Origin: Desulfobacteraceae bacterium
GTDB taxonomy: Bacteria; Desulfobacterota; Desulfobacteria; Desulfobacterales; Desulfobacteraceae
DNA: 13,178 bases
Direction of reading: 5' to 3'
NCBI GenBank assembly: GCA_015486915.1
Contig: WFQS01000624.1
Location: forward strand, 1-13,178
The translations under genes and the position numbers were made by a program. This document shows positions 395-13,178 of the stretch, in pieces; the stretch's first letter is position 1, and every line of letters starts with the position of its first letter. The notes below the pieces were generated by a model, which worked only from the letters and a program-made list of their open reading frames with translations, ran no database searches and was not told where the DNA came from.

Positions 395-1654
395 TTATTT
401 AAGGAATGCAGGGTTTTGTATGATTTGCCCATATTCCTTCACCATTTCCGAAAAAACAGGTTTATCCACAAAGAATTTGTATATTTCGTCTGCCTTTTCC
501 ACAGGATCAATATCCCTGAACGCTTGAGGATAAAGAACCTTGCCAACGGCATAGGCATCTGAAATTGCTGTCCCCAGATTTGTTGCATACCAGTTGAAAG
601 GCATTAAAGTGTAGACTTGTTTGTTTCGGAACGCCTTTAATGCATTATAAAAAGTTGTTTTTTTACGGAAATCCTGAGCAATGAGGTCAAGCCCCCCGTC
701 ATCAATAAAGATAATATCAGGATCAAGTTTTAAAAGCATTTCCCTGTCAAGAAAAACATGACTTCCCATGGCAGGCTTTACCTGCATTGCCAGATTTGGC
801 ACATCAAGCCAATCAAAGGGGATATAGCGCTGTTCCGTACTTTCAATGCCGTGGGCTCCCCGATAGCCGAGACCACCCACATATGCCCTTGGGTGCATAC
901 TCTTAGAAATACCTGATACACGGTTTTTCAAATCTTTTCTAAGAAGTTTAATGTAATTGATCAGATCCTCTGCTCTTTTTCCCCGGTTCAGAATTCTTCC
1001 CGTAATGGAAAGTGCATCATAAACTGCTTCATCAAAGGTGGCAAAAGCGCCATAATTCAGCACAACCACTGGTATCCCAAGTGTTTTCTGTACCTGATCA
1101 GCAAGAGAAGCTTTCATATAGGTAACAAAAATCACCTGTGGCGCAAGGGCGAGCAATGCCTCCATATTAGGTTTTTTATTAATACTCACCGTTCCTCCGG
1201 GGCCGCAGCTTGGTAATCCGGAAAGTTCAGGATGGGCAATCCAATAGGGACGACCCCCTGGGAATCTTTTTTCCATATCTTCAACACCGACGACTTTTGA
1301 TTCAGCCTGAAGGTATACGATCAGCCGCAATGCCCCGGGACCGATGCAGACAATACGCTCAGGATCAAAGCAAAGTGTTATCCGACGTTTTGTCATATCA
1401 GTCACCCTTATTGTCCTGGCAGAAATATCATTGCCTGAACATGGAATGTTATATTGTCCAGCTTCGGCAACGGATAAATTCAGAATCAGGCTCCATATTA
1501 TAATCCAAATAACGGCCAGGAGGCCAATCCGGGATTGCAGCCACAGTATAGACCGTATGCTTTGTTTTGCTTCGAATTCCACTGACATCAAAGCTTCCAG
1601 CCCATACCCAGATATAATATTTAAACTTTTTTCTATAGAATTGTGCTTAATCAT
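395..1654 (-). CDS. ABC transporter periplasmic substrate-binding protein, FecB/BtuF type
   Basis: This is a helical-backbone (class III) binding protein that would deliver a metal complex, siderophore or corrinoid to the permease/ATPase encoded just upstream. An ATG at 1654 preceded by AGAGG gives 419 residues, 19 nt after the ATPase stop. An ATG at 1588, preceded by GGAAG, gives 397 residues and a more normal signal-peptide length, so the start is uncertain. The hydrophobic segment (LLAVIWIIIWSLILNL) ends at AEA, a plausible signal peptidase site. Next come the usual two lobes: VCIGPGALRLIVYL near the N-terminus, a GRPYWIAHPEL segment, LLALAPQVIFV, and later LLKLDPDIIFID and NKQVYTLMPFNWYATN. 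The longer open frame reaching 1846 overlaps the ATPase gene and is not the likely start. The substrate cannot be read from the sequence; iron complexes, molybdate/tungstate and corrinoids are all possible for this family. Confidence 0.88.
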   Translation of the reverse strand: MIKHNSIEKSLNIISGYGLEALMSVEFEAKQSIRSILWLQSRIGLLAVIWIIIWSLILNLSVAEAGQYNIPCSGNDISARTIRVTDMTKRRITLCFDPERIVCIGPGALRLIVYLQAESKVVGVEDMEKRFPGGRPYWIAHPELSGLPSCGPGGTVSINKKPNMEALLALAPQVIFVTYMKASLADQVQKTLGIPVVVLNYGAFATFDEAVYDALSITGRILNRGKRAEDLINYIKLLRKDLKNRVSGISKSMHPRAYVGGLGYRGAHGIESTEQRYIPFDWLDVPNLAMQVKPAMGSHVFLDREMLLKLDPDIIFIDDGGLDLIAQDFRKKTTFYNALKAFRNKQVYTLMPFNWYATNLGTAISDAYAVGKVLYPQAFRDIDPVEKADEIYKFFVDKPVFSEMVKEYGQIIQNPAFLK

Positions 1655-1673
1655 ATTAAACCTCTGATTAATG

Positions 1674-2426
1674 TTACAACGGAACTGCCACTGTGTGACC
1701 ATTAATTTTTTCCAAAATAACGTCAACGTCATACACCTGCCTGATAATATCACAAGTGAGTTCTTCCTTTGTGGAAAGTGCGTGAATTCTATGATCCTTG
1801 AGAAACAGAAAATTATCTGCAAACCGTATGGCAGTATTGAGATCATGGATTACAATAACGGCTGAAATTTTTTTTATTTTAACCACTTTGCGAATCAGCG
1901 CCATTACCTCAAGCTGATTTTTAATGTCAAGGCTGCTTGTGGGTTCATCAAGAAGCAGAACAGAAGGGGACTGTGCAAGAGCTCTTGCTATAACAACTTT
2001 CTGAATTTCACCGCCGCTCAGATCACTGACACGACGCATGGCAAGCTCTGCAATGCCGATCTGTTCGATGATGTTTTCCACAAAGGCATAATCTTTTCCG
2101 GTAACTGACCATCTGATATGGGGCCTGCGACCCATGAGCACAGCCTCAAAAACAGTGACGTCTATTTCAGGATGGCGTTGCGGTACATATCCCATATGCT
2201 GTGCCACTGAGTTTCGGTTCATGCGCAGTATGTTTTTCCCATCCACAAAAACAGAACCTTTTTCTGGATTTAAGATACAATTCAGGCATTTAAGCAGCGT
2301 GGATTTTCCAGCCCCGTTTACACCAAGTACACACATGATCTGCCCCTTGTTCAGGGAGAAACTTACATTGGAAAGGACAGGATGGCTGTTATATGAAAAT
2401 TGGATATCAGCTACCTTGAGTTTCAT
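1674..2426 (-). CDS. ABC transporter ATP-binding protein, FecE/BtuD type
   Basis: This is the cytoplasmic ATPase that powers the importer, 250 residues, normal for the family. Visible motifs are Walker A GVNGAGKST (35-43), Q-loop glutamine near 83 (YVPQRHPE), ABC signature LSGGE (136-140), Walker B VLLLDEP (156-162), D-loop SSLD (164-167) and switch histidine H194 (VIHDLN). All catalytic residues are present. The start codon overlaps the permease stop by 4 nt (ATGA), a sign of translational coupling. It is the only ABC ATPase in the window, so it might also serve the plus-strand permease, which lacks one; that sharing is inference. Confidence 0.96.
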   Translation of the reverse strand: MKLKVADIQFSYNSHPVLSNVSFSLNKGQIMCVLGVNGAGKSTLLKCLNCILNPEKGSVFVDGKNILRMNRNSVAQHMGYVPQRHPEIDVTVFEAVLMGRRPHIRWSVTGKDYAFVENIIEQIGIAELAMRRVSDLSGGEIQKVVIARALAQSPSVLLLDEPTSSLDIKNQLEVMALIRKVVKIKKISAVIVIHDLNTAIRFADNFLFLKDHRIHALSTKEELTCDIIRQVYDVDVILEKINGHTVAVPL

Positions 2427-3454
2427 TTATACCCCCTGATTAACAAATAAAGAAATACCGGGGCTCCAAAAAATGAGGTTATCACACCAACCGGCAGTGC
2501 ACCGGAACCAATGAATACACGGCCTATAGTATCTGCACCTAGCAGAATAAGGGCACCGATCACTGAGGAGAACGGGATCAGCAAACCATGGTCATCACCT
2601 GTCAGCCGCCTTGCAATATGCGGTGCGATGAGTCCGACAAAGGCGATGATACCGTGAAAAGCCGTGGCAAGTGCAGAAATAAGGGTGGCTGCAATCATAC
2701 CGGCTATTCTGATTCTTTCAACGTTCACTCCAAGCCCTTTTGCTGTTTCCTCTCCGGAAGACAGAGTGTTCAGATCCCATTTCAAAGCCGTTAAAAAAGC
2801 TGTGGCTGCTGCAGTACAGACCAGTAACAGCATTATCTCCTGCCAATTGGAACGCGCTACATCCCCAAATGTCCAGAAGACCACCATGGCAAGTTCAGTT
2901 TCGGTTGCAAGGTATTGAATAAGTATTGTTGCAGAGGCAAAAAGAGCAGAAAGCCCCACACCCGCAAGAATGATGGTTTCAGGAGAAAGCCTTTTCAATC
3001 CTGACAGAAGCAGAATAACCAGAGTTGCAGTCATTGCCCCGCCAAATGCACAAATTGTTACAGAAAAAAACTTTCCATTAAATACAACAATGGACAAGGC
3101 TGCTCCAAAGGCTGCTCCGTGACTGATTCCAAGCGTCGAAGGTGAACCAAGGGGATTTTTCAGCAGAGACTGTATTGCAAGCCCTGAAACCGAAAGACCC
3201 CATCCACATACAAGAGCTGCAATAACACGCGGCAGTCTGATATCTCTTATTACAATACCGGAAGTACCCCTTATTTCTCCGGTTAAGGCTTTCAGTATAG
3301 TTTTGATTGGAATTTCATATGCTCCCTGGGTTACGGCATAAACGCAAAGCAAAAGCATTACACCTGCCAGAATCAACAGAACCATCATTTTCCTGTGCAC
3401 ACAGTTTAAATATTCTGCTGTTATGGTGCCTGTTGTTTCATATGGATCTTTCAT
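2423..3454 (-). CDS. ABC transporter permease, FecCD/BtuC type
   Basis: This is an inner-membrane permease of the iron-siderophore/cobalamin family, about 343 residues, expected to form a homodimer with about ten transmembrane helices per subunit. Family hallmarks are IRLPRVIAALVCGWGLSVSGLAIQ near the N-terminus, NPLGSPSTLGISHGAAFGAA, GLSALFASA, the coupling-helix region FVGLIAPHIARRLTG, and the C-terminal ITSFFGAPVFLYLL. The start is ambiguous: ATG at 3454 sits 12 nt after AAGGTGG, whereas a TTG at 3463 sits only 3 nt after it. It is the first gene of the three-gene minus-strand operon and directly follows the attenuator-like leader. Confidence 0.95.
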   Translation of the reverse strand: MKDPYETTGTITAEYLNCVHRKMMVLLILAGVMLLLCVYAVTQGAYEIPIKTILKALTGEIRGTSGIVIRDIRLPRVIAALVCGWGLSVSGLAIQSLLKNPLGSPSTLGISHGAAFGAALSIVVFNGKFFSVTICAFGGAMTATLVILLLSGLKRLSPETIILAGVGLSALFASATILIQYLATETELAMVVFWTFGDVARSNWQEIMLLLVCTAAATAFLTALKWDLNTLSSGEETAKGLGVNVERIRIAGMIAATLISALATAFHGIIAFVGLIAPHIARRLTGDDHGLLIPFSSVIGALILLGADTIGRVFIGSGALPVGVITSFFGAPVFLYLLIRGYK

Positions 3455-3481
3455 ATTGTACAATTACCACCTTTTTAAAAT

Positions 3482-3930: not shown

Positions 3931-4023
3931 CACAGGACTGACCTTACAGACAATATAGTATTAGCAATACGTGAAAAACTAAGATTTTATGAAAAAAGTT
4001 TTTCATGTAAAATTGAGTTTTAG

Positions 4024-4185
4024 TTCAGGCGCTCATTGTGAGCTTAAAAGGGAACTCCGTTAAAATCGGAGACGGGCCCGCCGCTGTGATCGGGGACGAA
4101 AACCGCATTATGCCACTTGTGTTTTAAAACAACAGGGAAGGCGCGGTAATTAAGGATGATCCGAAAGTCAGAAGACCTGCCTGAA
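4024..4185 (+). promoter_or_regulatory. Cobalamin riboswitch
   Basis: The aptamer shows the family's ordered landmarks: closing stem P1 TTCAGG (4024-4029) with CCTGAA (4180-4185), the GCTCA/TGAGC hairpin, the TTAAAAGGGAA junction, a CTCCG/CGGAG arm, GCCGCTGTGA (4078-4087), and the B12 box AGTCAGAAGACCTGCC (4166-4181). Adenosylcobalamin or a related corrinoid is the known ligand of this class. An intrinsic terminator follows 65 nt downstream, so binding probably ends transcription before the CcsA-like gene. It implies B12 repression of the plus-strand operon. Confidence 0.96.
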
Positions 4186-4250
4186 TGAGGAGTCGAATCT
4201 CGCGGATAAAGAGAATGACTCAATGATCCTGCTGGATAAGCACGGGACAT

Positions 4251-4287
4251 CCCGGATCGATTTTTTTTTCGGTCGGGGATTTTTTTT
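4251..4287 (+). terminator. Riboswitch expression-platform terminator
   Basis: The arms CCCGGATCGA (4251-4260) and TCGGTCGGGG (4269-4278) pair at nine of ten positions, counting one G-T pair, around a T-rich loop, followed by A and eight T (4280-4287). It lies between the cobalamin aptamer and the first gene, as expected for the off state. An upstream hairpin using GAGTC (4190-4194) and GACTC may take part in switching. The short hairpin GGTTAAT/ATTAACC (4337-4355) just before the weak ribosome-binding site AGG could add a translational layer. Confidence 0.8.
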
Positions 4288-4366
4288 GCCCGGCTGATAC
4301 CCCTGATTAATGGTCTTTTGTTGTAGAGCATTACAGGGTTAATATCAGATTAACCGGACAGGTATC

Positions 4367-5287
4367 ATGGTTTTTGTTGATAATACCTTTTATCTTGCAG
4401 TTCTGTTTTATGTTTTAAGCTGGTTTTCAGCTGTTAAAAGGCAGGTCTCCATATTTTTGCTATGTATGGGACTTGTTGCGAATTTTTTTTCAATTGCAGG
4501 GCGTTATTATCTTTCCTTTCCTCTGATGCCCATGTATCAGACTCCTTTTTTCCTGCCAATTTTTATTGGCCTTTTCTCCATAAAAATCATATGGAATAAG
4601 GATAAAATGCGGGTAAGCATTATCTCCGTCATATCCTGTTTATCAATAATAGCAGTATTTTTCCCAAATGATTTTTATCTGCCTTTCCTTAAATCAAAAA
4701 CTATCTTTTCCCATATTTTTTTCTTATCAGGCGTTATGGCCAAGGCATGTTTTATAATTGCCGGAGTTTACAGTATTCATAATCTTCCCTTTTATAAGAA
4801 AGAGCTCTATTTTGACAGAGTCACAAATACTCTGTCCATGTTCGTTGAGAGGCACTGTAACGCAGTTCAGATCTGCCTCATGGCAGTTATAAAAAAATAC
4901 AGAAAAAGCCGGAAAAATTCTGAAACCCGTGAAATTCCGGTTAATAAATCCATTGATACAAATAAAAAAATAATGAACTGGATAATCACAGGATTTGCCC
5001 TGTGGACTATATCCATGTTTTCCGGAGAAATATGGTCATTTCTCGGATGGGGAAATCCCGTTGCATGGGATGATGCCGCCATTCTCACCACAATGGCGAC
5101 CTGGCTTTACTATGTATGTTTTCTGCATCTTCATTTTGTAAAAGCATTTAAAAATTATCAGATAAAAACATATGCTGCTGCATTTGGTACGATTCTTATA
5201 CTGATCCTGAATTTTTATCCTGAGCTCGGGATATTTCAGATACCCCGGATAAACCGCATTTTTGAATTTCCATGGATGGTATTATGA
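4367..5287 (+). CDS. CcsA/ResC-like cytochrome c assembly (haem-handling) membrane protein
   Basis: This is a polytopic inner-membrane protein, 306 residues, with hydrophobic helices from the N-terminus to about 140 and again from about 204. The diagnostic feature is a divergent WWD motif at residues 220-237 (GEIWSFLGWGNPVAWDDA: W223, W228, W234, D235), followed by TTMATWLYYVCFLHLHF with H254/H256. H116 and H138 flank a further helix. In System II cytochrome c assembly the WWD domain presents haem at the outer membrane face together with Ccs1/ResB, whose homologue is the next gene. Residues about 150-175, in a soluble loop, are encoded by a copy of the dispersed hairpin element, so this loop is probably an insertion. 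It is the first gene after the cobalamin riboswitch, which is unusual for this family; the true cargo (haem, corrinoid or another tetrapyrrole) is unknown. The ribosome-binding site (ACAGG) is weak. Confidence 0.82.
   Translation: MVFVDNTFYLAVLFYVLSWFSAVKRQVSIFLLCMGLVANFFSIAGRYYLSFPLMPMYQTPFFLPIFIGLFSIKIIWNKDKMRVSIISVISCLSIIAVFFPNDFYLPFLKSKTIFSHIFFLSGVMAKACFIIAGVYSIHNLPFYKKELYFDRVTNTLSMFVERHCNAVQICLMAVIKKYRKSRKNSETREIPVNKSIDTNKKIMNWIITGFALWTISMFSGEIWSFLGWGNPVAWDDAAILTTMATWLYYVCFLHLHFVKAFKNYQIKTYAAAFGTILILILNFYPELGIFQIPRINRIFEFPWMVL
4814..4890 (+). repeat. Dispersed hairpin element, copy 2, inside a coding region
   Basis: The first hairpin is GACAGAGT (4814-4821), a 7-nt loop, ACTCTGTC (4829-4836), a perfect 8-bp stem. 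After 36 nt comes the second: CTGCC (4873-4877), TCAT, GGCAG (4882-4886), then TTAT. The segment from about 4838 also matches the inverted copy near 13030, sharing TTCGTTG, GAGGCA and then the core hairpin. The element is read in frame by the CcsA-like gene and encodes residues about 150-175, between two membrane regions, without breaking the frame. Confidence 0.72.
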
Positions 5288-6108
5288 AAAAAATATGGAA
5301 AATACTGGGAGATATTAAATTTACGGTAATTATACTTTTACTGCTTGTCTGCGACCTTTGTGCAGGGTATTTCAGTCTTCTTGGAAATGAAAAAATATTC
5401 AGGCCACTTGGGGATTTCGGCCTGATTCAATGGATAAACACATTCGGAAAAACATACCCTGTTCATACAATGTGGTTTTTTGCCCTGTTTATTCTTCTTG
5501 CTCTGCTTGGAATAAATACATTTGCATGTACAACAGACAGAATTATTATTTTGATTAAAAACCGCAGTCATTTTAATAATCCTGTTTCTTTTGCCCTGAA
5601 ATTTTCCGTTCATATCATGCATTACTCCCTGATTATCATTTTAACAGGATATCTGATAACCTATGTTTTACCTTCGGTCTCTTCCAATGAAATTCTTGTT
5701 TTAAATCAGAATAAAAAAATCCCCAATACAAAAATAAATGTAATGCTTAAATCAATGGATATTAAATATTACCACGGAACCAGACTGAAATTTTTAAATA
5801 ACCGTGCCTGGGATTTAAATGCAAAACTGCTGGTCACAGGCAGGAATGTTTCCCGGGGAGAATTAAAGACAATAGGCATTAATAAGCCTTTTATATTTAA
5901 GAATATCAGTTTTACTCTCAAGGATTTTGGTCCTAAATACAAATACGGCATGAAACAGCAGCCCTATATAAGTCTTATCATAAAAAAGACCCTGGGCATT
6001 AAATTCTATTTTGCGGGAACTCTGCTCTTTTCCTGCGGGCTTTTCATGTATCTGTATCAGTGTTTTTTTCATAGGGGTCATGATCAGATGATCAGAGAAC
6101 CGGTGTAA
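5284..6108 (+). CDS. Ccs1/ResB-like cytochrome c assembly protein
   Basis: The product is 274 residues, short for the family. The first segment WKILGDIKFTVIILLLL resembles the ResB N-terminus. Membrane helices are predicted at about 13-34, 62-83 and 106-130 (with H110 and H113), then an extracytoplasmic domain at about 131-237 and a last helix at 238-262. This is the ResB plan of three helices, a soluble domain and a fourth helix. Known ResB/Ccs1 proteins work with CcsA/ResC to carry haem and hold apocytochrome c. The ATG at 5284 overlaps the previous stop codon (ATGA) and has GGATGG in front; the upstream ATG at 5272 lacks a ribosome-binding site. Coupling to the CcsA-like gene supports a two-subunit complex. 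No cytochrome c gene (CXXCH) is visible in the window. Confidence 0.82.
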   Translation: MKKIWKILGDIKFTVIILLLLVCDLCAGYFSLLGNEKIFRPLGDFGLIQWINTFGKTYPVHTMWFFALFILLALLGINTFACTTDRIIILIKNRSHFNNPVSFALKFSVHIMHYSLIIILTGYLITYVLPSVSSNEILVLNQNKKIPNTKINVMLKSMDIKYYHGTRLKFLNNRAWDLNAKLLVTGRNVSRGELKTIGINKPFIFKNISFTLKDFGPKYKYGMKQQPYISLIIKKTLGIKFYFAGTLLFSCGLFMYLYQCFFHRGHDQMIREPV

Positions 6109-6165: not shown

Positions 6166-7299
6166 ATGGGAAAAAAACTTCAAATATTTAAAACCGTCAT
6201 GATCACATGCATTTTTATAAGCGGTTTATTATTGCAGGGTGCATGCAGTGAAAACTCCAGAAGGAGTTCAGGTTTCACCAGTATAGGTGAATTTTCCATC
6301 AGATATTTGCCGGATAATTGTAAGGAAATAAGAGATGGAGCAGGCAGGCTCATGGTTCTTGTTCCAAGGGGGCAGAAACCACCAGAGGGGTATGAAAAAG
6401 ATCATATCATTGAAATACCTGTGAAAAGGGTTGTGGTATCCTCGGGATTCAATGTCAGTCTGCTAAAGGCTCTTGGTGTTTTAAACACCCTTGTCGGTGT
6501 AACACATGAAAAAAAATACTGGACAATTAAAAAAGTTGTTCAGGGAATGAAGAGCGGTAAAATAACATGCATAGGCAGATCAGGAGCAATTGATTTTGAA
6601 AAACTAAAGGCAATCAGGCCTGATTTGATGCTGACCTGGGATGCCTGCGCCATTGCAAAAATTACAAGGCTTAATATTCCGGGGGTTATTACTACCACGG
6701 GAGAAGCCATGAATCTTGATACACGAATACGTTTTGTTAAGTTTCTATCTGTGTTTTTCAACAGAGAACAAAGAGCAGATGAATATATAAAAAAAATTCA
6801 AAATACCATTACAAAAGTAAGTAAATTATCAATGAATATTAAAAAACAACCAAAAATCATATGGGGAGATATATTTGAAAAAAGAGTGCTTGTGGAACCG
6901 GGAAATTCATGGGCTGCCCAGTTGATAAACTTAAGCGGGGGAAATTATCTGTTTAATGACATAAAGGGGGCATCTTGAATTGAGATCTCACTGGAAAAGT
7001 TTCTTTCCAGCGGAAAAAAAGCTGATATTCTTTTTACATACAGAACACCGAAAACCGGCGCAACATCAATACAGGCCCTTGCCCGTGCCAATTCGCTGTT
7101 AAAAAATATCAAACCTTTGACCATGGGGAGTGTGTATGCTCCTCTTCCCTGTTACAGCCAGTCTGCAGATAAATTTGATCAAATTATTGAGGAGATATCA
7201 GGCATTATTAATAATTTCAGGGGTTTGAAAAAGCAGGATCTAAAATTTTTTATAAAACTGCCGTTAAAAAATCCCGGTAAGTCCAGACCGGCCTCATGA
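6166..7299 (+). CDS. FecB/BtuF-type binding lipoprotein interrupted by an in-frame UGA
   Basis: This is a periplasmic binding protein related to the one at 11573-12691. The start has a strong GGGAGA 6 nt ahead. The N-terminus has a hydrophobic segment ending LLLQGACS, a plausible though atypical lipobox (Q at -3). The first reading frame stops at TGA 6976-6978 after 270 codons. The same frame then stays open for 106 codons to TGA 7297-7299, and this second part matches the C-terminus of the paralogue (for example EKFLSSGKKADI versus EYFCAHGSKADI, and LKFFIKLP versus LRYFVKLP). The whole, 377 codons, equals the paralogue's 372. It is therefore one gene with an internal UGA: a recent nonsense mutation, or a recoded codon (see the hairpin at 6976-7010). 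The final stop lies within a copy of the hairpin element. It probably serves the permease that follows. Confidence 0.8.
6976..7010 (+). promoter_or_regulatory. UGA followed by a SECIS-like hairpin
   Basis: Twelve nt after the in-frame TGA (6976-6978) there is a perfect 7-bp stem CTGGAAA (6991-6997) with TTTCCAG (7004-7010) and a 6-nt loop AGTTTC. The loop starts 19 nt after the UGA and has G as its second base followed by U, features of bacterial SECIS elements. Against recoding, the aligned residue in the paralogue is asparagine, not cysteine, and such short hairpins arise by chance. Confidence 0.25.
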
Positions 7300-7412
7300 C
7301 GTTTTATAAGAAATAGAATGTAACCTGTTACATTTATATCATACTTTGTCAGAATCTCTGATTCTTTGAGACGGGTCTGTGTCTGAATCCGGATCGGCCT
7401 CATGGCCGTTAC
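7283..7412 (+). repeat. Dispersed hairpin element, copies 3 and 4 (tandem cores)
   Basis: A degenerate core (CGGCC, TCAT, GACG at 7289-7301) overlaps the end of the binding-protein gene and supplies its stop codon. It is followed by TTTTATAAG, a perfect 8-bp palindrome AATGTAAC-CT-GTTACATT (7317-7334), a 6-bp hairpin AGAATC-TCT-GATTCT (7351-7365), and a full core CGGCC-TCAT-GGCCG (7395-7408) followed by TTA. Nearly the same order recurs at 12709-12812. The AT-rich flank after it carries AAGAAAAGGAAA ahead of the permease start. Confidence 0.72.
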
Positions 7413-7443
7413 AGAAAAATAAGAAAAGGAAATAAAAATTTAA

Positions 7444-8472
7444 GTGGAAGATTCATTAAAATTTAATGAAAAAAAATACACCATGGTATTTATCCTGCTC
7501 TGGTTTGTGCTGGTATCAGTATTTGCCGTTAATATTATAATCGGGTCAGTAAAGATTTCACTTCCCGCCCTTTTTAATATTATATGTACGCATGACACTG
7601 CAAGTATTTGTGGATTTATTATATGGAACATCCGTATTCCAAGGGCTGTTGCCGCTGTACTTGGCGGAGCATATCTTTCCGTTGCAGGACTTTTACTGCA
7701 GGTTTTTTTTCGAAATCCCATTGTGGGACCATTTATTCTCGGAATATCCTCAGGGGCAACCCTGATGGTTTCATTTGTTATGCTTACAAGCATAAGCCTT
7801 GGTTTCACTAATCTTATTCCTTATCTTACAACTATATCAGGTCTTGCAGGTGCCTATGCAACCATGGTGATCATCCTTGTTATTGCTGCAAAGGTAAAAG
7901 ATGGAATAACCCTTCTCATTGCAGGCCTTATGATGGGATACCTTTGCCATGCAGTGACCAGCATACTTGTCGTTTTTGCTGAACAGCAGAAAATAAAAGG
8001 CTTTGTGCTGTGGCAACTTGGAAGCTTTTCAGGGCTGAAATGGAGTGAAATACAATTATTGTTTATTACCGGGAGCATTATTTTGATTATTGTTTATTCT
8101 CTGAGCAAATCATTAAACGCCTTTCTTGCCGGAGAAACATATGCCCTGACAATGGGTGTCAATATCCGTTTGTTCAGGTTTCTTATTGTTTTGTGTTCGT
8201 GTGCCCTTGCCGGAATGGTGACGGCATTTGCAGGGCCTGTGGCATTCATAGGACTTGCAGTGCCTCATATGACGAGGCTGTGTTTTTCAACATCCGACAA
8301 TCGTATTTTAATTCCCGGAACTATTATGCTCGGAGCCATTGTAACGGTGTTATGCGATTTATTAGCACGACAGATATTTTCCCCGGTTGAACTTCCCATC
8401 AGTGCAATTACAGCATTTTTTGGGGCACCGGTTGTTATAGGTCTTTTAATGAAGAAAAGGGTCTCGGTATAA
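7444..8472 (+). CDS. ABC transporter permease, FecCD/BtuC type
   Basis: This is a second inner-membrane permease, 342 residues from the GTG at 7444 (an ATG at 7483 is the alternative). Family landmarks are IRIPRAVAAVLGGAYLSVAGLLLQ, FFRNPIVGPFILGISSGATL, GLMMGYLCHAV, FVLWQLGSFSGLKW, the coupling region FAGPVAFIGLAVPHMTRL, and the C-terminal ITAFFGAPVVIGLLMKKR. It follows the UGA-containing binding-protein gene and precedes the adenosyltransferase, which suggests corrinoid import. No ATPase gene accompanies it on this strand. A partly deleted, recently duplicated copy lies at 12847-12988. Confidence 0.94.
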   Translation: MEDSLKFNEKKYTMVFILLWFVLVSVFAVNIIIGSVKISLPALFNIICTHDTASICGFIIWNIRIPRAVAAVLGGAYLSVAGLLLQVFFRNPIVGPFILGISSGATLMVSFVMLTSISLGFTNLIPYLTTISGLAGAYATMVIILVIAAKVKDGITLLIAGLMMGYLCHAVTSILVVFAEQQKIKGFVLWQLGSFSGLKWSEIQLLFITGSIILIIVYSLSKSLNAFLAGETYALTMGVNIRLFRFLIVLCSCALAGMVTAFAGPVAFIGLAVPHMTRLCFSTSDNRILIPGTIMLGAIVTVLCDLLARQIFSPVELPISAITAFFGAPVVIGLLMKKRVSV

Positions 8473-8503
8473 CACCCGAATAAACCGGAAAGGAAAAGGT
8501 AAA

Positions 8504-8647
8504 ATGCAGCAGGTTTGTTTACATGAAAAAAATGAAATTAAAATAAAAATACCAGATACAATACGGAAAATTCAAGGAAGCAAGGTGGATGTCCTTGGCA
8601 CTGATGATGTTGATAAATGGCAGATGGAATGGAGGATCGCCAAGTGA
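8504..8647 (+). CDS. 47-residue small protein coupled to cobO
   Basis: The ATG at 8504 has AAAGGAAAAGG 5 nt ahead, and the frame ends in TGA at 8645-8647, overlapping the adenosyltransferase GTG start by 4 nt (GTGA). The product begins MQQVCLHEKNEIKIKIPD and ends DKWQMEWRIAK; it is charged, with no signal peptide or membrane segment. I do not recognise the family. The strong ribosome-binding site, the overlap and an identical second copy of its 5' end at 13113 support a real gene. A role as a helper or leader of the adenosyltransferase is a guess. Confidence 0.6.
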   Translation: MQQVCLHEKNEIKIKIPDTIRKIQGSKVDVLGTDDVDKWQMEWRIAK

Positions 8648-9192
8648 GTAAAGAGATAAAAGAAACCAGGGAAAAAGATGGTTTAATTTTGATATTTACC
8701 GGCCATGGCAAGGGCAAGACCACCGCAGCCATAGGCATCACTATGCGGGCAGTGGGCCATGGTTTTAAGACCTGCTTTATCCAATTTATTAAAGGAAGCT
8801 GGAAATATGGTGAGATGGAGGCCATTGCCAAATTTCCCGACAATATTGACTTTCATGTCATGGGTCGAGGCTTTACCTGGAAATCCGATGATCTCGATAA
8901 AGACCGGGCTGTGGCGAGGGAAGCATGGGAAAAGGCCAAAGAGGTGATTTTTACAGGGCAATACAAGATGGTGATACTGGATGAATTCACCTATCTGCTC
9001 CTCTATGACATGATTGACCGTAATGATGCCCTTAGGGTTCTGGCCAATAAACCCGCAGATCTGCATATTGTTATCACTGGCCGCGATGCCGACCCGGCTC
9101 TGATTGACCTTGCCGATCTGGTCACTGAGATGAAGGTGATTAAGCATCCATACAAACAAGGAATAAAGGCTCAGAAAGGAATTGAGTTCTAA
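8644..9192 (+). CDS. cobO: Corrinoid adenosyltransferase, CobO/BtuR type
   Basis: This enzyme transfers the adenosyl group of ATP to reduced corrinoid, making the coenzyme form, in the cytoplasm. The GTG at 8644 preceded by GGAGG with an 8-nt gap gives 182 residues; the earlier ATG at 8617 lacks such a site. Motifs are the P-loop GHGKGKTT (20-27), TCFIQFIKGSW, VMGRGFTW, Walker B-like MVILDEFTYLL, and the C-terminal signature ITGRDADPALIDLADLVTEM followed by KHPYKQGIKAQKGIE. The family requires a reduced corrinoid. Position between the permease and the B12 receptor and downstream of the riboswitch fits B12 salvage. The gene looks more GC-rich than the genes before it. Confidence 0.95.
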   Translation: MSKEIKETREKDGLILIFTGHGKGKTTAAIGITMRAVGHGFKTCFIQFIKGSWKYGEMEAIAKFPDNIDFHVMGRGFTWKSDDLDKDRAVAREAWEKAKEVIFTGQYKMVILDEFTYLLLYDMIDRNDALRVLANKPADLHIVITGRDADPALIDLADLVTEMKVIKHPYKQGIKAQKGIEF

Positions 9193-9419
9193 TGGCAGGA
9201 CAAATAAAAAAACTACTCAATTTTTCCACCCACCCTGGCGAGTTGGAATTCTTTGGTGATGACTGGGGGAGGTGGCAAAGTTCACGAACAAATGGTAAAT
9301 CGATGGCTTTGAGTCATTGCCGGCGGGCGATTACCCATTTGCCCGGGCATATCGATCAGCGCCGCGTATGGCGGTATGACATTTTTACGTTAAGCTTTGG
9401 TATTCCCATACTACTATGA
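9192..9419 (+). CDS. Unrecognised 75-residue protein or gene remnant
   Basis: The ATG shares a base with the adenosyltransferase stop (TAATG), so translation could be coupled. The product begins MAGQIKKLLNFSTHPGELEF and has no obvious motif, signal or membrane helix. The second half is GC-rich and arginine/histidine-rich, unlike a typical conserved domain, so a truncated or shifted remnant is possible. It ends 17 nt before the receptor start. Confidence 0.35.
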   Translation: MAGQIKKLLNFSTHPGELEFFGDDWGRWQSSRTNGKSMALSHCRRAITHLPGHIDQRRVWRYDIFTLSFGIPILL

Positions 9420-9436
9420 AAAAAGGAGATTTGAAA

Positions 9437-11515
9437 ATGAGATACGTTTTTAAAATGGTAATTATTTTTGTTTTTTTTACCCTATTCTTGGCCCTATCAG
9501 AGATAAGCTTTGCAAAACAAAATGCGAGGGTGGAGGAAATTCCTAAAAGCAAACAGGAGCAGGCAAAGAAAGAGGAGCAAAAAAAGGCAGTGACATTAGA
9601 AGAAATAGTGGTTACCGCCACCAGAACCCCTGAGGAGAAAAAAAATCTCCCCCAAGTTGTTGATATAATTTCAACGAAAGATATTAAAATGACAGCAGGA
9701 GACGATCTCACTGATATCATAAAGGAAAATTCCAGTGTGGATGTGATCCAATACCCCGGAGGATATTCCGGTACTATAAGTATAAGGGGGATTAGGTCAG
9801 ACTATTGGGGTACTATTAAACACTGTTTAACATTGGTGGACGGCCGGCCAATCGGTGCTACAACCCTGGCGTCTATTAACAAGAATACTATTAGTCGAAT
9901 CGAAGTTCTCAAAGGTCCTGCATCCTCCCTTTACGGTTCGGGTGCCATGGGCGGAGTACTGAATATTATTACAAAAAAAACAAAGGGAAAAGTCAAAACT
10001 GCATTCACCATGGGAGGCGGCAGTTCTGATACGTTTAAGACGGAACTCTCTTCAGGGGGAAACATAACGGAAAAATTCGATTTTAACCTTGATGCAAGCA
10101 CCTATCATCAGAACGACGACATTCGTATGGGTAATGGTCACACGAGAGACTATACCGCATTTAAAAAATATAATGGCACCGCAAGATTAGGACTGGATCT
10201 GGCTGACACCTGGCGCCTGGATATGAAAGGCAACTGGTATGCCGGCCGGGATATAGAAAATCCGAATGACATAGATTGGGGGGACAGCAAACAGAAAAAA
10301 AGGGATGTCGATCAGTATGGGGGCGATTTAAGTCTTTCCGGAACGATTGCAAAGAATAACGAGGTTAACCTGACTTTTTATAATTCACGGGAAGAAAATA
10401 AATACAGCTATGAGTATACGGGAATCAACCCGTACACCGGTTCCTGCAACAGGTTTGACTGGCTGGGTGCGCAGTTTCAGGATACCTATCGTTGGGGCGT
10501 ACATAGTCTGACCATGGGGCTTGATTATCAGAAAGTTACCGAGGAAGGAAAATCCTGGAATGCCGACGGTACACGCAAAGGTCCCTGGCGGCCTGACAAC
10601 GAACGTGAAACATTGAGTGCTTTCGGTGAGGCGATGCTGAAGTTTTTAGATGACCGGATGATCGTCACCATGGGGGGAAGATACAATGCTATAGAGCTGA
10701 AGACAAGGGAAACTCCCTATAAAACTGGATTCACGCCCGGCTCTGAAAAATTTTACGCTTTCAATCCCAGCGGCGGCCTGAAGTTTTTTCTCTCTCCCCA
10801 ATGGCAGGTTCACTCGACTATCGGAACGGCCTTTGTAACTCCGAAGCCCGAACAGGTAGCCGGAACATGGGTGAGCAGTTGGGGTACCATCACCAAGGGA
10901 AATCCCGGCCTGGATCCGGAAAACAGCGTTAGCTGGGATGCCGGCATAAGTCATTCCAAAAAAGCATGGGGTCTTTCGGGAGATCTCACATACTTCATGA
11001 CCGATATTGATGACAAAATCGAAAAGGTCAAGACGGGCAGTTCGCTCTACACCTACGAAAATGCTCTGAAAGCCAGGATACGCGGCTTAGAAGGAGAGTT
11101 TTCTTTTGACATCGGCACTCTTGTCAGGCTGAATTATTCAGTTCGTTTTTTTGCCAATTTTACCAGGTTGTTCGAAGCGGAAGAGACCCTGTCTACCGGT
11201 AGGCAGGATATCCGTAATATCGCCGATACCAAGATAAATTACGGCCTGGAATATGACGATGGTCACTTTTTTAACAGCAAATTGACCGCCCGCTATGTGG
11301 GACACCGGAAAGATACGGATTGGGCTGTCAGTGGGTCCCCTGAAGTTGAGAATCCTTCATTTACAGTTGTCGATCTTGCAATGAATTTCAATTTACTCAA
11401 ACGTCACCATCTTGGTTTCCAGATATATAATATTTTTGACAAGTATTATTATGAAACCAAGGGGTATCCGTTACAGGGACGGTCCTTCTTTGTGAAATAT
11501 ACGATTGAGTTATGA
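9437..11515 (+). CDS. TonB-dependent outer-membrane receptor, BtuB-like
   Basis: This is an outer-membrane active-transport channel, 692 residues from the ATG at 9437, which follows AAAAGGAG by 8 nt (the ATG at 9416 has no such site). A signal peptide ends near SFA (residues 24-26). A lysine/glutamate-rich linker (about 33-50) and a TonB box EEIVVTATRT (55-64) follow. The plug has SIRGIRSDYWG, TLVDGRPIG and the conserved RIEVLKGPASSLYGSGAMGG with VLNIITKK. The rest is a beta barrel with many aromatic, alternating strands, including a GYPLQGRSFFVKYTIEL terminus. Receptors of this family take up siderophores, haem or cobalamin; the riboswitch and the adjacent cobO favour corrinoid. The C-terminal residue is leucine rather than the common phenylalanine. 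Confidence 0.92.
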   Translation: MRYVFKMVIIFVFFTLFLALSEISFAKQNARVEEIPKSKQEQAKKEEQKKAVTLEEIVVTATRTPEEKKNLPQVVDIISTKDIKMTAGDDLTDIIKENSSVDVIQYPGGYSGTISIRGIRSDYWGTIKHCLTLVDGRPIGATTLASINKNTISRIEVLKGPASSLYGSGAMGGVLNIITKKTKGKVKTAFTMGGGSSDTFKTELSSGGNITEKFDFNLDASTYHQNDDIRMGNGHTRDYTAFKKYNGTARLGLDLADTWRLDMKGNWYAGRDIENPNDIDWGDSKQKKRDVDQYGGDLSLSGTIAKNNEVNLTFYNSREENKYSYEYTGINPYTGSCNRFDWLGAQFQDTYRWGVHSLTMGLDYQKVTEEGKSWNADGTRKGPWRPDNERETLSAFGEAMLKFLDDRMIVTMGGRYNAIELKTRETPYKTGFTPGSEKFYAFNPSGGLKFFLSPQWQVHSTIGTAFVTPKPEQVAGTWVSSWGTITKGNPGLDPENSVSWDAGISHSKKAWGLSGDLTYFMTDIDDKIEKVKTGSSLYTYENALKARIRGLEGEFSFDIGTLVRLNYSVRFFANFTRLFEAEETLSTGRQDIRNIADTKINYGLEYDDGHFFNSKLTARYVGHRKDTDWAVSGSPEVENPSFTVVDLAMNFNLLKRHHLGFQIYNIFDKYYYETKGYPLQGRSFFVKYTIEL

Positions 11516-11572: not shown

Positions 11573-12691
11573 ATGTTATCCAATGGTAGCCGAATGATTT
11601 TAAGAAAGATATATATTACATGCTTTACATCTGTTGTTATCTTTTTTTTGTGTCTATCTGTTTCCGAGGGAGGAAGCCCCCTCAAGCTCCTATATGCCAC
11701 TCATTTTCATGTTGATTACTTACAGAATGGGTGTAAAAAAGTGACGGACGGGGCAGGCAGAGAGCTTCTTCTTGTACCACAGAGGAAAAAACCTGATCCA
11801 GCTTATCGGAAGGATGTGACTATAGTCAGAATTCCCGTAAGTAAGGTTATTACAAGATGGAGTACCATTCCAGCATTTTTAAAGGCGCTGGGAGTTATGA
11901 ATACCCTTGTAGGCGTGACTACCAGAAAAGAGGAGTGGTGTGCTGAGGATATAAAAATGATGATGGATCAGGGAATTATAAAAAATATTGGAACTCGTAA
12001 CGCTGTAGATTATGAGGAATTATACGTCATAAAGCCTGATATATTTTTTGCAAGTACATGGGAAAAAACAAGCAAGCTGATGGAATTGGGAATCCCAGTA
12101 GCCAAAACAAGTGAGTATTTAGAAGGTAATCCACTGGGAAGGTTAGAATGGATTAAGTTCTTTGCAGCCTTTTATGACAAGGAGAAGGAAGCGAAGGAAT
12201 ATTTTGATAAGGCGGTCAATGAGGTACGCCGGCTATCAGAAAAGATTGCAAATGTAAAGAAAAGGCCAAGAATACTGTGGGGAGCTATTAGAATTGGAGG
12301 AACGATTTATGCGCCTACAGGGAAGTGCTATGTAAGTAAGATGATTGCCATCTCTGGTGGAGATTCCATTTTAAAGGGATTAAGACGAATGGAGAATGCC
12401 CCAATAACCCTGGAGTATTTTTGTGCACATGGCAGCAAAGCGGATATCTACATATGCCCCGAGCCTTTACTGCAGGATGGCATTACCACAATAAAAAAGT
12501 TGGTCTTCATACATCCCATCATCTCCGCTTTCAAGTCAGTAAAAACGGGAAATGTGTTTTGCTTTCAGCCTTGGTATTGGGAATCCATTGACAAGACAGA
12601 TGAGATAATGGAAGATCTGGCTGCAATTTTTCATCCCGGCCTATTTCCTGAACATAAGCTTAGATATTTTGTCAAACTCCCTGCACAATAG
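11573..12691 (+). CDS. ABC transporter periplasmic substrate-binding protein, FecB/BtuF type
   Basis: This is the second plus-strand binding protein, 372 residues, with a hydrophobic N-terminal segment (YITCFTSVVIFFLCLSVSEG) acting as a signal peptide. It aligns along its length with the UGA-containing paralogue: GCKKVTDGAGR versus NCKEIRDGAGR, FLKALGVMNTLVGVT versus LLKALGVLNTLVGVT, PRILWG versus PKIIWG, and KADI segments. Divergence at protein level is large, so this is an old duplication. Neither possible start (ATG 11573 or 11594) has a good ribosome-binding site. It begins 57 nt after the receptor stop. It is intact, so it could substitute for the interrupted paralogue. A corrinoid substrate is inferred from context. 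Confidence 0.9.
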   Translation: MLSNGSRMILRKIYITCFTSVVIFFLCLSVSEGGSPLKLLYATHFHVDYLQNGCKKVTDGAGRELLLVPQRKKPDPAYRKDVTIVRIPVSKVITRWSTIPAFLKALGVMNTLVGVTTRKEEWCAEDIKMMMDQGIIKNIGTRNAVDYEELYVIKPDIFFASTWEKTSKLMELGIPVAKTSEYLEGNPLGRLEWIKFFAAFYDKEKEAKEYFDKAVNEVRRLSEKIANVKKRPRILWGAIRIGGTIYAPTGKCYVSKMIAISGGDSILKGLRRMENAPITLEYFCAHGSKADIYICPEPLLQDGITTIKKLVFIHPIISAFKSVKTGNVFCFQPWYWESIDKTDEIMEDLAAIFHPGLFPEHKLRYFVKLPAQ

Positions 12692-12708: not shown

Positions 12709-12814
12709 AATAAATGTAACTCATTACATTTATTGGCTTTGCGTCTTCGACCCATTTTTTGTCAGACTTTTTGAGACAAATGTAGGTAGATCCGGATCGC
12801 CCTCATGGCAGTTA
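12709..12814 (+). repeat. Dispersed hairpin element, copy 5
   Basis: It starts with a perfect 11-bp stem AATAAATGTAA (12709-12719), loop CTCA, TTACATTTATT (12724-12734). A 6-bp stem TTTGTC/GACAAA (12758-12780) follows, then GATCCGGAT and a degenerate core CGCCC-TCAT-GGCAG with GTTA. The order and flanks (AGGAAAATAAGTAAAGGAAA) mirror the region before the intact permease, including the location between a binding-protein gene and a permease. Confidence 0.68.
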
Positions 12815-12846
12815 CAGGAAAATAAGTAAAGGAAATAAAAATTTAA

Positions 12847-12988
12847 GTGAAAGATTCATTAAAATTTAATGAAAAAATACACCATGGTATGTATCCTGTT
12901 TGGCTTTGTGCTGTGGCAGCTTGGAAGCTTTTCAGGGCTGAGATGGGTTGTTATAGGTCTTTTAATGAAAAAAAGGGTCTCGGTATAA
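12847..12988 (+). pseudogene. Collapsed duplicate of the FecCD permease
   Basis: Three blocks match the permease at 7444-8472: its first about 50 nt, the FVLWQLGSFSGLKW region (about 8001-8043), and the last 14 codons with the stop. Between them roughly 500 and 390 nt are missing. The first junction lies at TTTGTGCTG, present in the parent at 7504-7512 and 8002-8010, pointing to deletion between short direct repeats. Two A residues are also lost from the early A-run, so the GTG-start frame shifts. From the internal ATG at 12884 the reading frame remains in register through both junctions and yields a 34-residue hydrophobic peptide ending LLMKKRVSV. It cannot be a working permease; whether the peptide is made is unknown. 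Confidence 0.85.
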
Positions 12989-13068
12989 CGGCTATGAGGC
13001 CGATCTGGATTCAGGTCCAGTTGCCTCACAACGAATGTAGAAATAGAACGAATGATTTACGCTCTATT
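12989..13068 (-). repeat. Dispersed hairpin element, copy 6 (inverted)
   Basis: On the minus strand it reads AATAGA...TCTATT (13068-13042, outer arms of a hairpin with an added CG/CG pair), then 39 nt including TTCGTTG and GAGGCA, then CCAGAT and the core CGGCC-TCAT-AGCCG (13002-12989), then TTA. Its upstream flank TTTATAAAAAATAGA matches TTTATAAGAAATAGA near 7304. It lies between the permease remnant and the second small-gene copy, where the parental segment (8473-8480) has only a few bases. Confidence 0.7.
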
Positions 13069-13112
13069 TTTTATAAAAATCTGAATAAATAAACCGGAAA
13101 GGAAAAGGTAAA

Positions 13113-13178
13113 ATGCAGCAGGTTTGTTTACATGAAAAAAATGAAATTAAAATAAAAATACCAGATACAATACGGAAA
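13113..13178 (+). CDS. Second copy of the small cobO-linked gene (partial)
   Basis: This begins with the same ribosome-binding site and first 22 codons as the gene at 8504; 89 nt (13090-13178) are identical to 8481-8569, including synonymous positions. It runs off the window edge. A second adenosyltransferase gene probably follows, which would make this a repeated operon segment. Confidence 0.6.
   Translation, partial: MQQVCLHEKNEIKIKIPDTIRK

Follow-up and report, generated by a model that had tools for sequence, protein, structure and literature searches.

A CcsA/ResB-like pair behind a cobalamin riboswitch and its recurrent linkage to an importer with a predicted selenoprotein binding protein

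Background

CcsA and ResB genes are usually annotated as genes of cytochrome c biogenesis, and their closest described counterpart is CcsBA of Helicobacter hepaticus (7s9y). All four histidines of CcsBA, TM-His1 and TM-His2 in the membrane haem site and P-His1 and P-His2 in the external one, are needed for haem attachment, and the TM-His variants retained about 15% of haem (PMC6299221; this and the other papers are cited from excerpts). A CcsA/ResB-like pair in another neighbourhood is described in this paper. It is located on a stretch of 13,178 nucleotides from a Desulfobacteraceae bacterium (contig WFQS01000624.1, forward strand; the whole stretch is referred to as the window), where the same fold goes with an importer that would be repressed by B12.

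Several described systems share parts with this locus. In delta-proteobacteria, B12 elements precede B12 transport loci, and neither CcsA nor ResB is named in the excerpt concerned (PMC545781). The BtuF-like system CbtJKL, which is under a cobalamin riboswitch, is a Co(II) importer (PMC7689651). CcsA-annotated genes are also present in an iron-responsive Bacteroides locus, which is a different setting (PMC10434189).

Results and discussion

The pair and its recurrence behind cobalamin riboswitches

The cobalamin riboswitch aptamer of the window occupies 4010..4198 on the + strand, where cmscan gave a full-length match to RF00174 of 117.6 bits (E 1.6e-29), the gathering score being 31.5 bits. 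The first genes behind it, on the same strand, encode a CcsA-like integral membrane protein of 306 aa at 4367..5287 (Cytochrom_C_asm, 52.9 bits, cut-off 29.9) and a short ResB-like membrane protein of 278 aa at 5272..6108 (ResB, 29.5 bits, cut-off 24.6), and the two open reading frames (ORFs) overlap by 16 nt. This confirms an initial annotation of the window, which had put the pair first behind such a riboswitch and whose start, 4024, lies inside the aptamer. The B12-type genes that it had read downstream are also present on the + strand: a class III substrate-binding protein (SBP) at 6166..7299 (PF01497, 52.5 bits over the first 270 aa), a FecCD-type permease at 7444..8472 (PF01032, 243.3 bits; 54-73% identical to its relatives in the cassette loci described below), a CobO/BtuR corrinoid adenosyltransferase at 8617..9192 (PF02572, 227.5 bits; TIGR00708, 220.2 bits, above cut-off), a TonB-dependent receptor at 9416..11515 (plug and barrel domains), and a second SBP, paralogous to the first, at 11573..12691 (PF01497, 80.5 bits).

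The same arrangement was found in the genomes of many anaerobic bacteria. The protein search yielded 58 CcsA-like proteins, the window's own included, and 18 ResB-like proteins. With 38 of these CcsA-like proteins aligned, a scan of the contigs of GTDB genomes gave 47 loci; L045-L047 were left out, as their CcsA match is partial and the cassette is absent, and 44 loci were counted. The recurrent order is CcsA-ResB-SBP-FecCD-ATPase, with ResB in 44/44 loci, the SBP in 42/44, the permease in 40/44, and the ATPase in 38/44. Among the six gapped loci, L008, L010, L016, and L038 end at a contig border, and L037 has neither an SBP nor an ATPase match. According to Rfam searches, 39/44 loci have a cobalamin riboswitch upstream in the same orientation, and in 28/44 it is within 600 nt. 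Such a riboswitch was found in 0/20 control loci of the carrier genomes searched with 1.5 kb flanks, namely 13 ordinary ResB, 1 ordinary CcsA, and 6 proteins of a PF01578 group which we take to be HemX-like. Cultured carriers include Desulfocicer vacuolatum, Desulfobulbus elongatus, and Desulfogranum japonicum. All genome-wide tests in this study concern the genomes of relatives, not that of the window itself.

A separate draw was started from the SBP, whose alignment was searched in three draws of genomes (one phylum and two classes). Matches were obtained in 4/148, 16/192, and 13/192 genomes, amounting to 31 different genomes, 7 of which were already in the set; the system is patchy within the phylum and not universal. 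One place was taken from each of the other 24 genomes, with two weaker places in G302 left out, and of these 24 places 8 proved to be DNA already in the set and 16 were new. ResB adjoins the SBP in 16/16 new loci and CcsA is found in 14/16, both CcsA-less loci stopping at a contig border. The recurrent B12 linkage that the initial annotation had proposed as a check is therefore borne out, with riboswitches in 39/44 loci against none of the controls and with ResB beside the SBP throughout the new loci. The linkage of the pair to a B12-controlled importer is considered strong.

One carrier, Oleispirillum naphthae (L043), stands out among the loci: the PF05140 model finds no ResB there, and no cobalamin riboswitch was detected within 10 kb upstream. 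Horizontal transfer of the cassette into this organism is possible.

Ordinary System II genes and the CcsA tree

When 13 carrier genomes were searched for other System II genes, an ordinary ResB and CcsA pair was found elsewhere in 12 of them, so that the B12-linked pair is not the sole System II copy in these genomes. This, with the recurrent B12 linkage, runs counter to the outcome that the initial annotation had named as its refutation. The ordinary ResB of G007 is a fragment at a contig end, and in G004 the ResB of the ordinary pair is in a split frame. The thirteenth genome, Oleispirillum, gave no ResB match, its own cassette copy included, and contains two further PF01578 proteins, both encoded on a single contig. 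A tree of 71 CcsA-type proteins, built by a quick method, has a branch with an SH-aLRT value of 100 between the 45 B12-linked proteins and the others (14 ordinary, 12 HemX-like), L027 forming a long branch. The separate clade that had been asked about earlier finds support in this, the pair's CcsA lying on its own side of that branch; since the B12-linked set was gathered by similarity to the window, this separation is partly by construction. The tree shows, for the sequences compared, separateness from the ordinary copies and not an independent discovery of the clade.

Retained and lost residues of the pair

The positions of the haem-ligating histidines were mapped onto 7s9y via the ordinary copies. 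In the window, the CcsA-like protein has TM-His2 as H254 and P-His1 as H116, with P-His2 absent, and the ResB-like protein has TM-His1 as H117 and an additional H114. Across the aligned B12-linked copies, TM-His1 is kept in 45/45, TM-His2 in 45/45, P-His1 in 36/45, and P-His2 in 0/45, while all four are kept in the ordinary copies aligned (12 ResB, 14 CcsA). Moreover, the WWD motif WGxYWxWDPKE has become WGxPVxW(D/E)D in the B12-linked CcsA proteins. The residue signature, in which the TM histidines are kept and P-His2 is lost, shows in the alignments that the B12-linked lineage is set apart from ordinary CcsA and ResB.

The pair had been called shortened in the initial annotation. This holds for ResB, whose 278 aa compare with ordinary copies of 456-511 aa, or of 667 aa in one of the 12, and does not hold for CcsA, whose 306 aa fall within the 275-350 aa of the 14 ordinary copies (lengths of ordinary copies being those of open frames from stop to stop). 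The window CcsA-like protein misses the cut-off of the NCBIfam CcsB equivalog TIGR03144, with 54.1 against 187.6 bits. In the fold comparison, CcsBA was the best match for both members of the pair. When PDB sequences were searched with profiles made from the pair alignments, no CcsBA relative appeared up to E 10, and the connection of the pair to CcsBA came solely via the ordinary copies and the fold comparison.

A 30-nt repeat at 4870-4899 lies in the CcsA-like frame, within a 32-residue stretch that is missing from the 85% identical relative P0003; further copies of the repeat are at 324, 7392, and 12795.

As P-His2 is lost in all 45 copies, cytochrome c synthesis by the pair is unlikely. 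The CxxCH motif is absent from the called ORFs of the window with at least 90 aa, in agreement with the earlier statement that no cytochrome c is nearby. In the called ORFs of the other loci, the CxxCH scan gave three matches, one in the L005 radical SAM protein and two in ORFs of L017 and L018 outside the cassettes, and no cytochrome c gene was recognised by it in the cassettes. The earlier suggestion of a cobalt-reducing cytochrome that the pair would assemble finds no support in these results. It might still be argued that an ordinary System II cytochrome c synthase has come to lie behind a B12 riboswitch by chance, as the Pfam names and fold of the pair would indicate. Against the recurrent linkage, the separate ordinary copies, the loss of P-His2, and the lack of a recognised cassette cytochrome c gene, this explanation is exceedingly improbable, and ordinary System II maturation was rejected on the last three of these grounds, as was the cobalt-reducing cytochrome.

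Alternatively, the pair could still move haem, exporting it to the periplasm for the SBP, the receptor, or a b-type haem protein, without attachment to cytochrome c. The residues TM-His1 and TM-His2, which form the membrane haem site of CcsBA (PMC6299221), are kept in every copy, which speaks for such export. Against it, P-His2 of the external haem site is gone from 45/45 and P-His1 from 9/45 copies, the WWD motif is partly lost, and no cassette protein was recognised as a haem acceptor. Export of this kind is judged improbable.

The partner SBP as a predicted selenoprotein

The SBP gene at 6166..7299 contains an in-frame TGA at 6976-6978, at which mechanical ORF calling truncates the protein. 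In 44 aligned rows, this column (position 271) has 34 Cys, 8 TGA (the window, L001-L004, L008, L009, and L016), 1 Asn in the second SBP of the window, and 1 gap (L010). It can be seen that, with this Asn as the exception, Cys occurs in 34/35 rows that have a residue other than TGA. Cys is also found at the column in 120/120 homologues, the best 120 of 340 found, and the 17 rows from the new loci have 15 Cys and 2 TGA (L118, L127). A TGA thus takes the place of a near-invariant Cys in 10 copies, and is predicted from this pattern to encode selenocysteine (Sec).

A SECIS-like hairpin at 6991..7010 (+ strand), recognised by fold and codon conservation, begins 12 nt past the TGA. In 9/10 TGA copies (7/8 of the first set, 2/2 new) this hairpin is the fold of lowest energy for the 48-nt segment; in L008 it is not, and the stem is still able to form. 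Among 6 Cys copies that were folded, L012 and L013 likewise have a hairpin there, of different sequence. In the 8 TGA copies of the first set, codons for the same residue are identical in 185/202 comparisons at the hairpin versus 2719/5469 elsewhere in the gene, a codon-identity value that was attained by 1/323 windows along which it was computed. In the 34 Cys copies, the corresponding figures are 1740/3976 and 49076/106341 (0.44 versus 0.46). Codon conservation is stronger evidence for selenocysteine than the hairpin fold. A nonsense mutation was considered as the origin of the TGA and rejected, as 10 copies have it at the same column together with a conserved hairpin sequence.

The TGA genomes of the first set have SelB above cut-off in 6/7 and tRNA-Sec in 7/7 cases (lowest score 56.5 bits; G302 and G427 are left out of these counts). 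Since most of the nine Cys genomes also pass for SelB and tRNA-Sec, this amounts to a necessary condition only. Cys-type SBPs possess a second Cys at position 183 in 32/34 rows, the other two having Asp, and in 13/15 new rows; in each of the 10 TGA copies the residue at this position is Asp or Asn. The Sec motif of the cassette SBP is GASU, GAAU, or STU. Position 271 pairs in the alignment with a Trp of the SBP 4ovk, and the residues of the BtuF cavity include W196 (PMC5269720); the three would represent the same site.

Two further SBPs were observed beside the cassette proteins. The second SBP of the window (11573..12691) has Asn at both Cys/Sec columns in the alignment, which may reflect another ligand or drift. 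In L122, a tandem second SBP (6675-7694) has Cys at the 271 column and none at 183.

The wider operon

ORFs were clustered from 45 sources including the window, and Pfam and NCBIfam models were run on ten representatives. The ORF calls are mechanical, with wrong frames in GC-rich loci, and all the following cluster counts are rough. A CobN cluster is found in 28/45 sources, often directly after the ATPase; CobN precedes CcsA in L017 and L032 and is on the opposite strand in some loci. ChlI/D-type subunits were found in 16/45 sources, TonB receptors in 14, and a radical SAM protein in 12, the last being located between the ATPase and CobN in L001 and L003-L007. ExbB and DUF3450 genes are present in few sources. 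The L018 CobN passes the cobaltochelatase equivalog cut-off (992.5 versus 822.05). By a crude hydropathy scan, 24/27 ORFs of the CobN cluster longer than 1100 aa have no hydrophobic segment; the segment is internal in L005 and L019 and at the ORF start in L025. From these predictions CobN is probably cytoplasmic. Among the carrier genomes searched, CbiD and CbiK were each found in 15/16, so that early cobalt insertion is probable and CobN must serve another role, perhaps salvage.

Two side observations concern these genes. In L007, the radical SAM protein (6872-7903) resembles peptide or sulfatase maturases, and a CbiK-type chelatase gene is located in the cassette locus L017 (381-1448), with a gene of the same cluster in L032.

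The composition of the operon bears on what the cassette carries. Salvage of haem or other metalloporphyrins, like that by Hmu/BtuS of Bacteroidota, would agree with the CobN-family protein that accompanies the cassette in many loci and also occurs in hmu operons (PMC12583661, PMC6460266), with the weak matches of the SBPs to IsdE, and with the score of the window TonB receptor, which reaches 243.6 bits with a haem-receptor model. It is difficult to reconcile with control by a B12 riboswitch, with the absence of a signal or anchor segment from most of the CobN proteins, unlike periplasmic HmuS/BtuS, and with the ChlI/D-type subunits alongside CobN, and we give it little credence.

Import of cobalt, as an ion or a chelate, in the manner of CbtJKL is a better candidate, and is nonetheless unlikely. 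In such a system the Cys or Sec of the SBP would bind cobalt, and the haem pair would reduce Co(III) chelates before uptake. Besides the CbtJKL precedent, the soft Cys/Sec ligand in the SBP and the presence of CobN with ChlI/D-type subunits, the kind of enzyme that inserts cobalt, near the cassette in many loci speak for cobalt. The high frequency of CbiK, with which a class I chelatase is not needed, speaks against it, as does the ATPase tested (L018), whose best resemblance is to the corrinoid ABC ATPase (239.6 bits, below the cut-off of 537). Additionally, a bulky ligand is suggested by the TonB receptors located immediately upstream of CcsA in L004, L041, L117, and L128.

Proposed mechanism

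The reading that we favour, at about an even chance, is that the pair is a membrane haem protein derived from System II and dedicated to a B12-repressed importer, for which it would act as an electron conduit, the cargo being a corrinoid or cobalt. A b-type haem held between H117 of the ResB-like and H254 of the CcsA-like protein would carry electrons across the membrane, either to the Cys/Sec site of the SBP or to a bound Co(III) corrinoid or cobalt chelate. Reduction would loosen the axial ligands or keep the SBP site reduced, whereupon the FecCD/ATPase pump would import the cargo. Processing inside the cell would fall to CobO, joined in many loci by CobN and ChlI/D-type subunits, and the riboswitch would silence the system under ample B12. 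Possible substrates are a corrinoid, another metallo-tetrapyrrole, or, by analogy with CbtJKL, a cobalt chelate. The initial annotation had proposed, among other roles, that the pair reduces a tetrapyrrole, and we infer this role in preference to the others.

A more specific form of this proposal is put forward tentatively, as somewhat less probable than the electron conduit as such. In this form the cassette would be a redox-coupled ABC importer, in which the haem pair passes electrons over the inner membrane and reduces a cobalt cargo held by the two Cys or the one Sec of the periplasmic SBP, and reduction gates uptake. If it is true, the CcsA/ResB fold would have gained a novel use and selenoprotein transporters a novel class, both controlled by B12. 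To our knowledge, no component for an electron or haem step in the corrinoid or cobalt uptake of anaerobes is known, and the cassette suggests that this uptake needs electrons or haem.

Several observations weigh against the proposed electron conduit. The retained TM histidines are equally compatible with passage of haem, and cobalt, a corrinoid, or another tetrapyrrole would look alike as cargo at the level of sequence. The haem-receptor model TIGR01785 outscores the B12-receptor model TIGR01779 (165.3 bits) for the window TonB receptor, both being below cut-off. The + operon has no ATPase gene within the window, where the divergent BtuC/BtuD-like genes described below are a possible source of one. 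In L027 the riboswitch and the pair were the only cassette elements matched, and the association of the pair with the importer is therefore not a strict one. In 11 of the 39 riboswitch-bearing loci the element is 2.0-8.4 kb upstream, and co-transcription there is putative. In L002, L010, L012, L028, and L043, no riboswitch was found at the gathering score or at E <=0.5, the search having covered 10 kb upstream in L028 as in L043. In the new loci from the SBP draw, a riboswitch is upstream in at least 10/16 and within 600 nt of CcsA in at least 5 (L109, L112, L115, L125, L127). Five of the six riboswitch-less new loci have a contig end at, or within about 0.4 kb of, CcsA or ResB, and in the sixth, L117, there was no riboswitch among the matches listed.

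Other features of the window

Behind the aptamer, a terminator-like hairpin with a T run at about 4249..4287 (+ strand) was found by scan and fold, as a consensus match only; the 112-nt stretch containing it has a z-score of -2.32, and it is possibly the expression platform of the riboswitch. On the - strand, a divergent set comprises a BtuC-like permease at 2423-3463 (PF01032), a BtuD-like ATPase at 1674-2426 (PF00005), and a BtuF-like SBP at 395..1846 (PF01497, 58.9 bits). The best NCBIfam names for the permease and ATPase are PRK03784 and PRK09536, both below cut-off, and no RF00174 match was found for the set (395-3463) on the - strand within the window. The BtuF-like frame of 483 aa overlaps btuD by 173 nt, and its true start is probably further in. 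The end of the window, 12790-13178, is pieced together from near-copies of 7387-7512, 7999-8052, 8430-8473, and 8479-8569, through either the decay of a duplicated permease gene or an error of assembly.

Comparison with known systems

Every part of the cassette belongs to a known superfamily, and no description of the combination was found in the openly licensed literature, as far as the excerpts extend; those of PMC13188914, PMC9312934, PMC12013277, and PMC545781 do not describe it. Closest with regard to selenium are SaoB/SaoX and a BtuF-type selenoprotein, listed in a table of PMC13188914, which share with the cassette a Sec in the binding protein of an ABC transporter. The motifs given in that excerpt are CUxxT, UxP, and, for BtuF, CxxU, as against GASU/GAAU/STU in the cassette, the BtuF-type protein being compared by its listed motif only. 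P0001 gave no match to NF040727 or NF040735 (SaoB/SaoX) up to E 0.1.

The HmuS/BtuS operons of Bacteroidota resemble the cassette loci in their TonB receptor, CobN-family protein, and ExbB-type genes. According to the excerpts, HmuS/BtuS are periplasmic, membrane-anchored, and linked to haem iron, whereas the cassette CobN mostly has no such segments and often occurs with ChlI/D-type subunits. CbtJKL of Sinorhizobium meliloti has in common with the cassette a BtuF-like SBP under a cobalamin riboswitch, and differs in that a CcsA/ResB pair, TonB, and CobN are unmentioned in the excerpt of PMC7689651; the two are set apart by description alone.

BtuCDF is alike in combining an SBP, a FecCD permease, and an ATPase, and in riboswitch control. 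It is unlike the cassette in that the NCBIfam cut-offs for BtuC, BtuD, and BtuF are not reached by the window proteins, the L018 ATPase, or the L005 SBP, and in that the cassette SBP has a Cys or predicted Sec and a haem-protein pair is attached. Finally, CcsBA or ResB-CcsA shares with the pair both folds, the adjacency of the genes, TM-His1, and TM-His2. The pair departs from it in the complete loss of P-His2, the loss of P-His1 in some copies, the changed WWD motif, a much shorter ResB, and neighbours that form an importer, not cytochromes.

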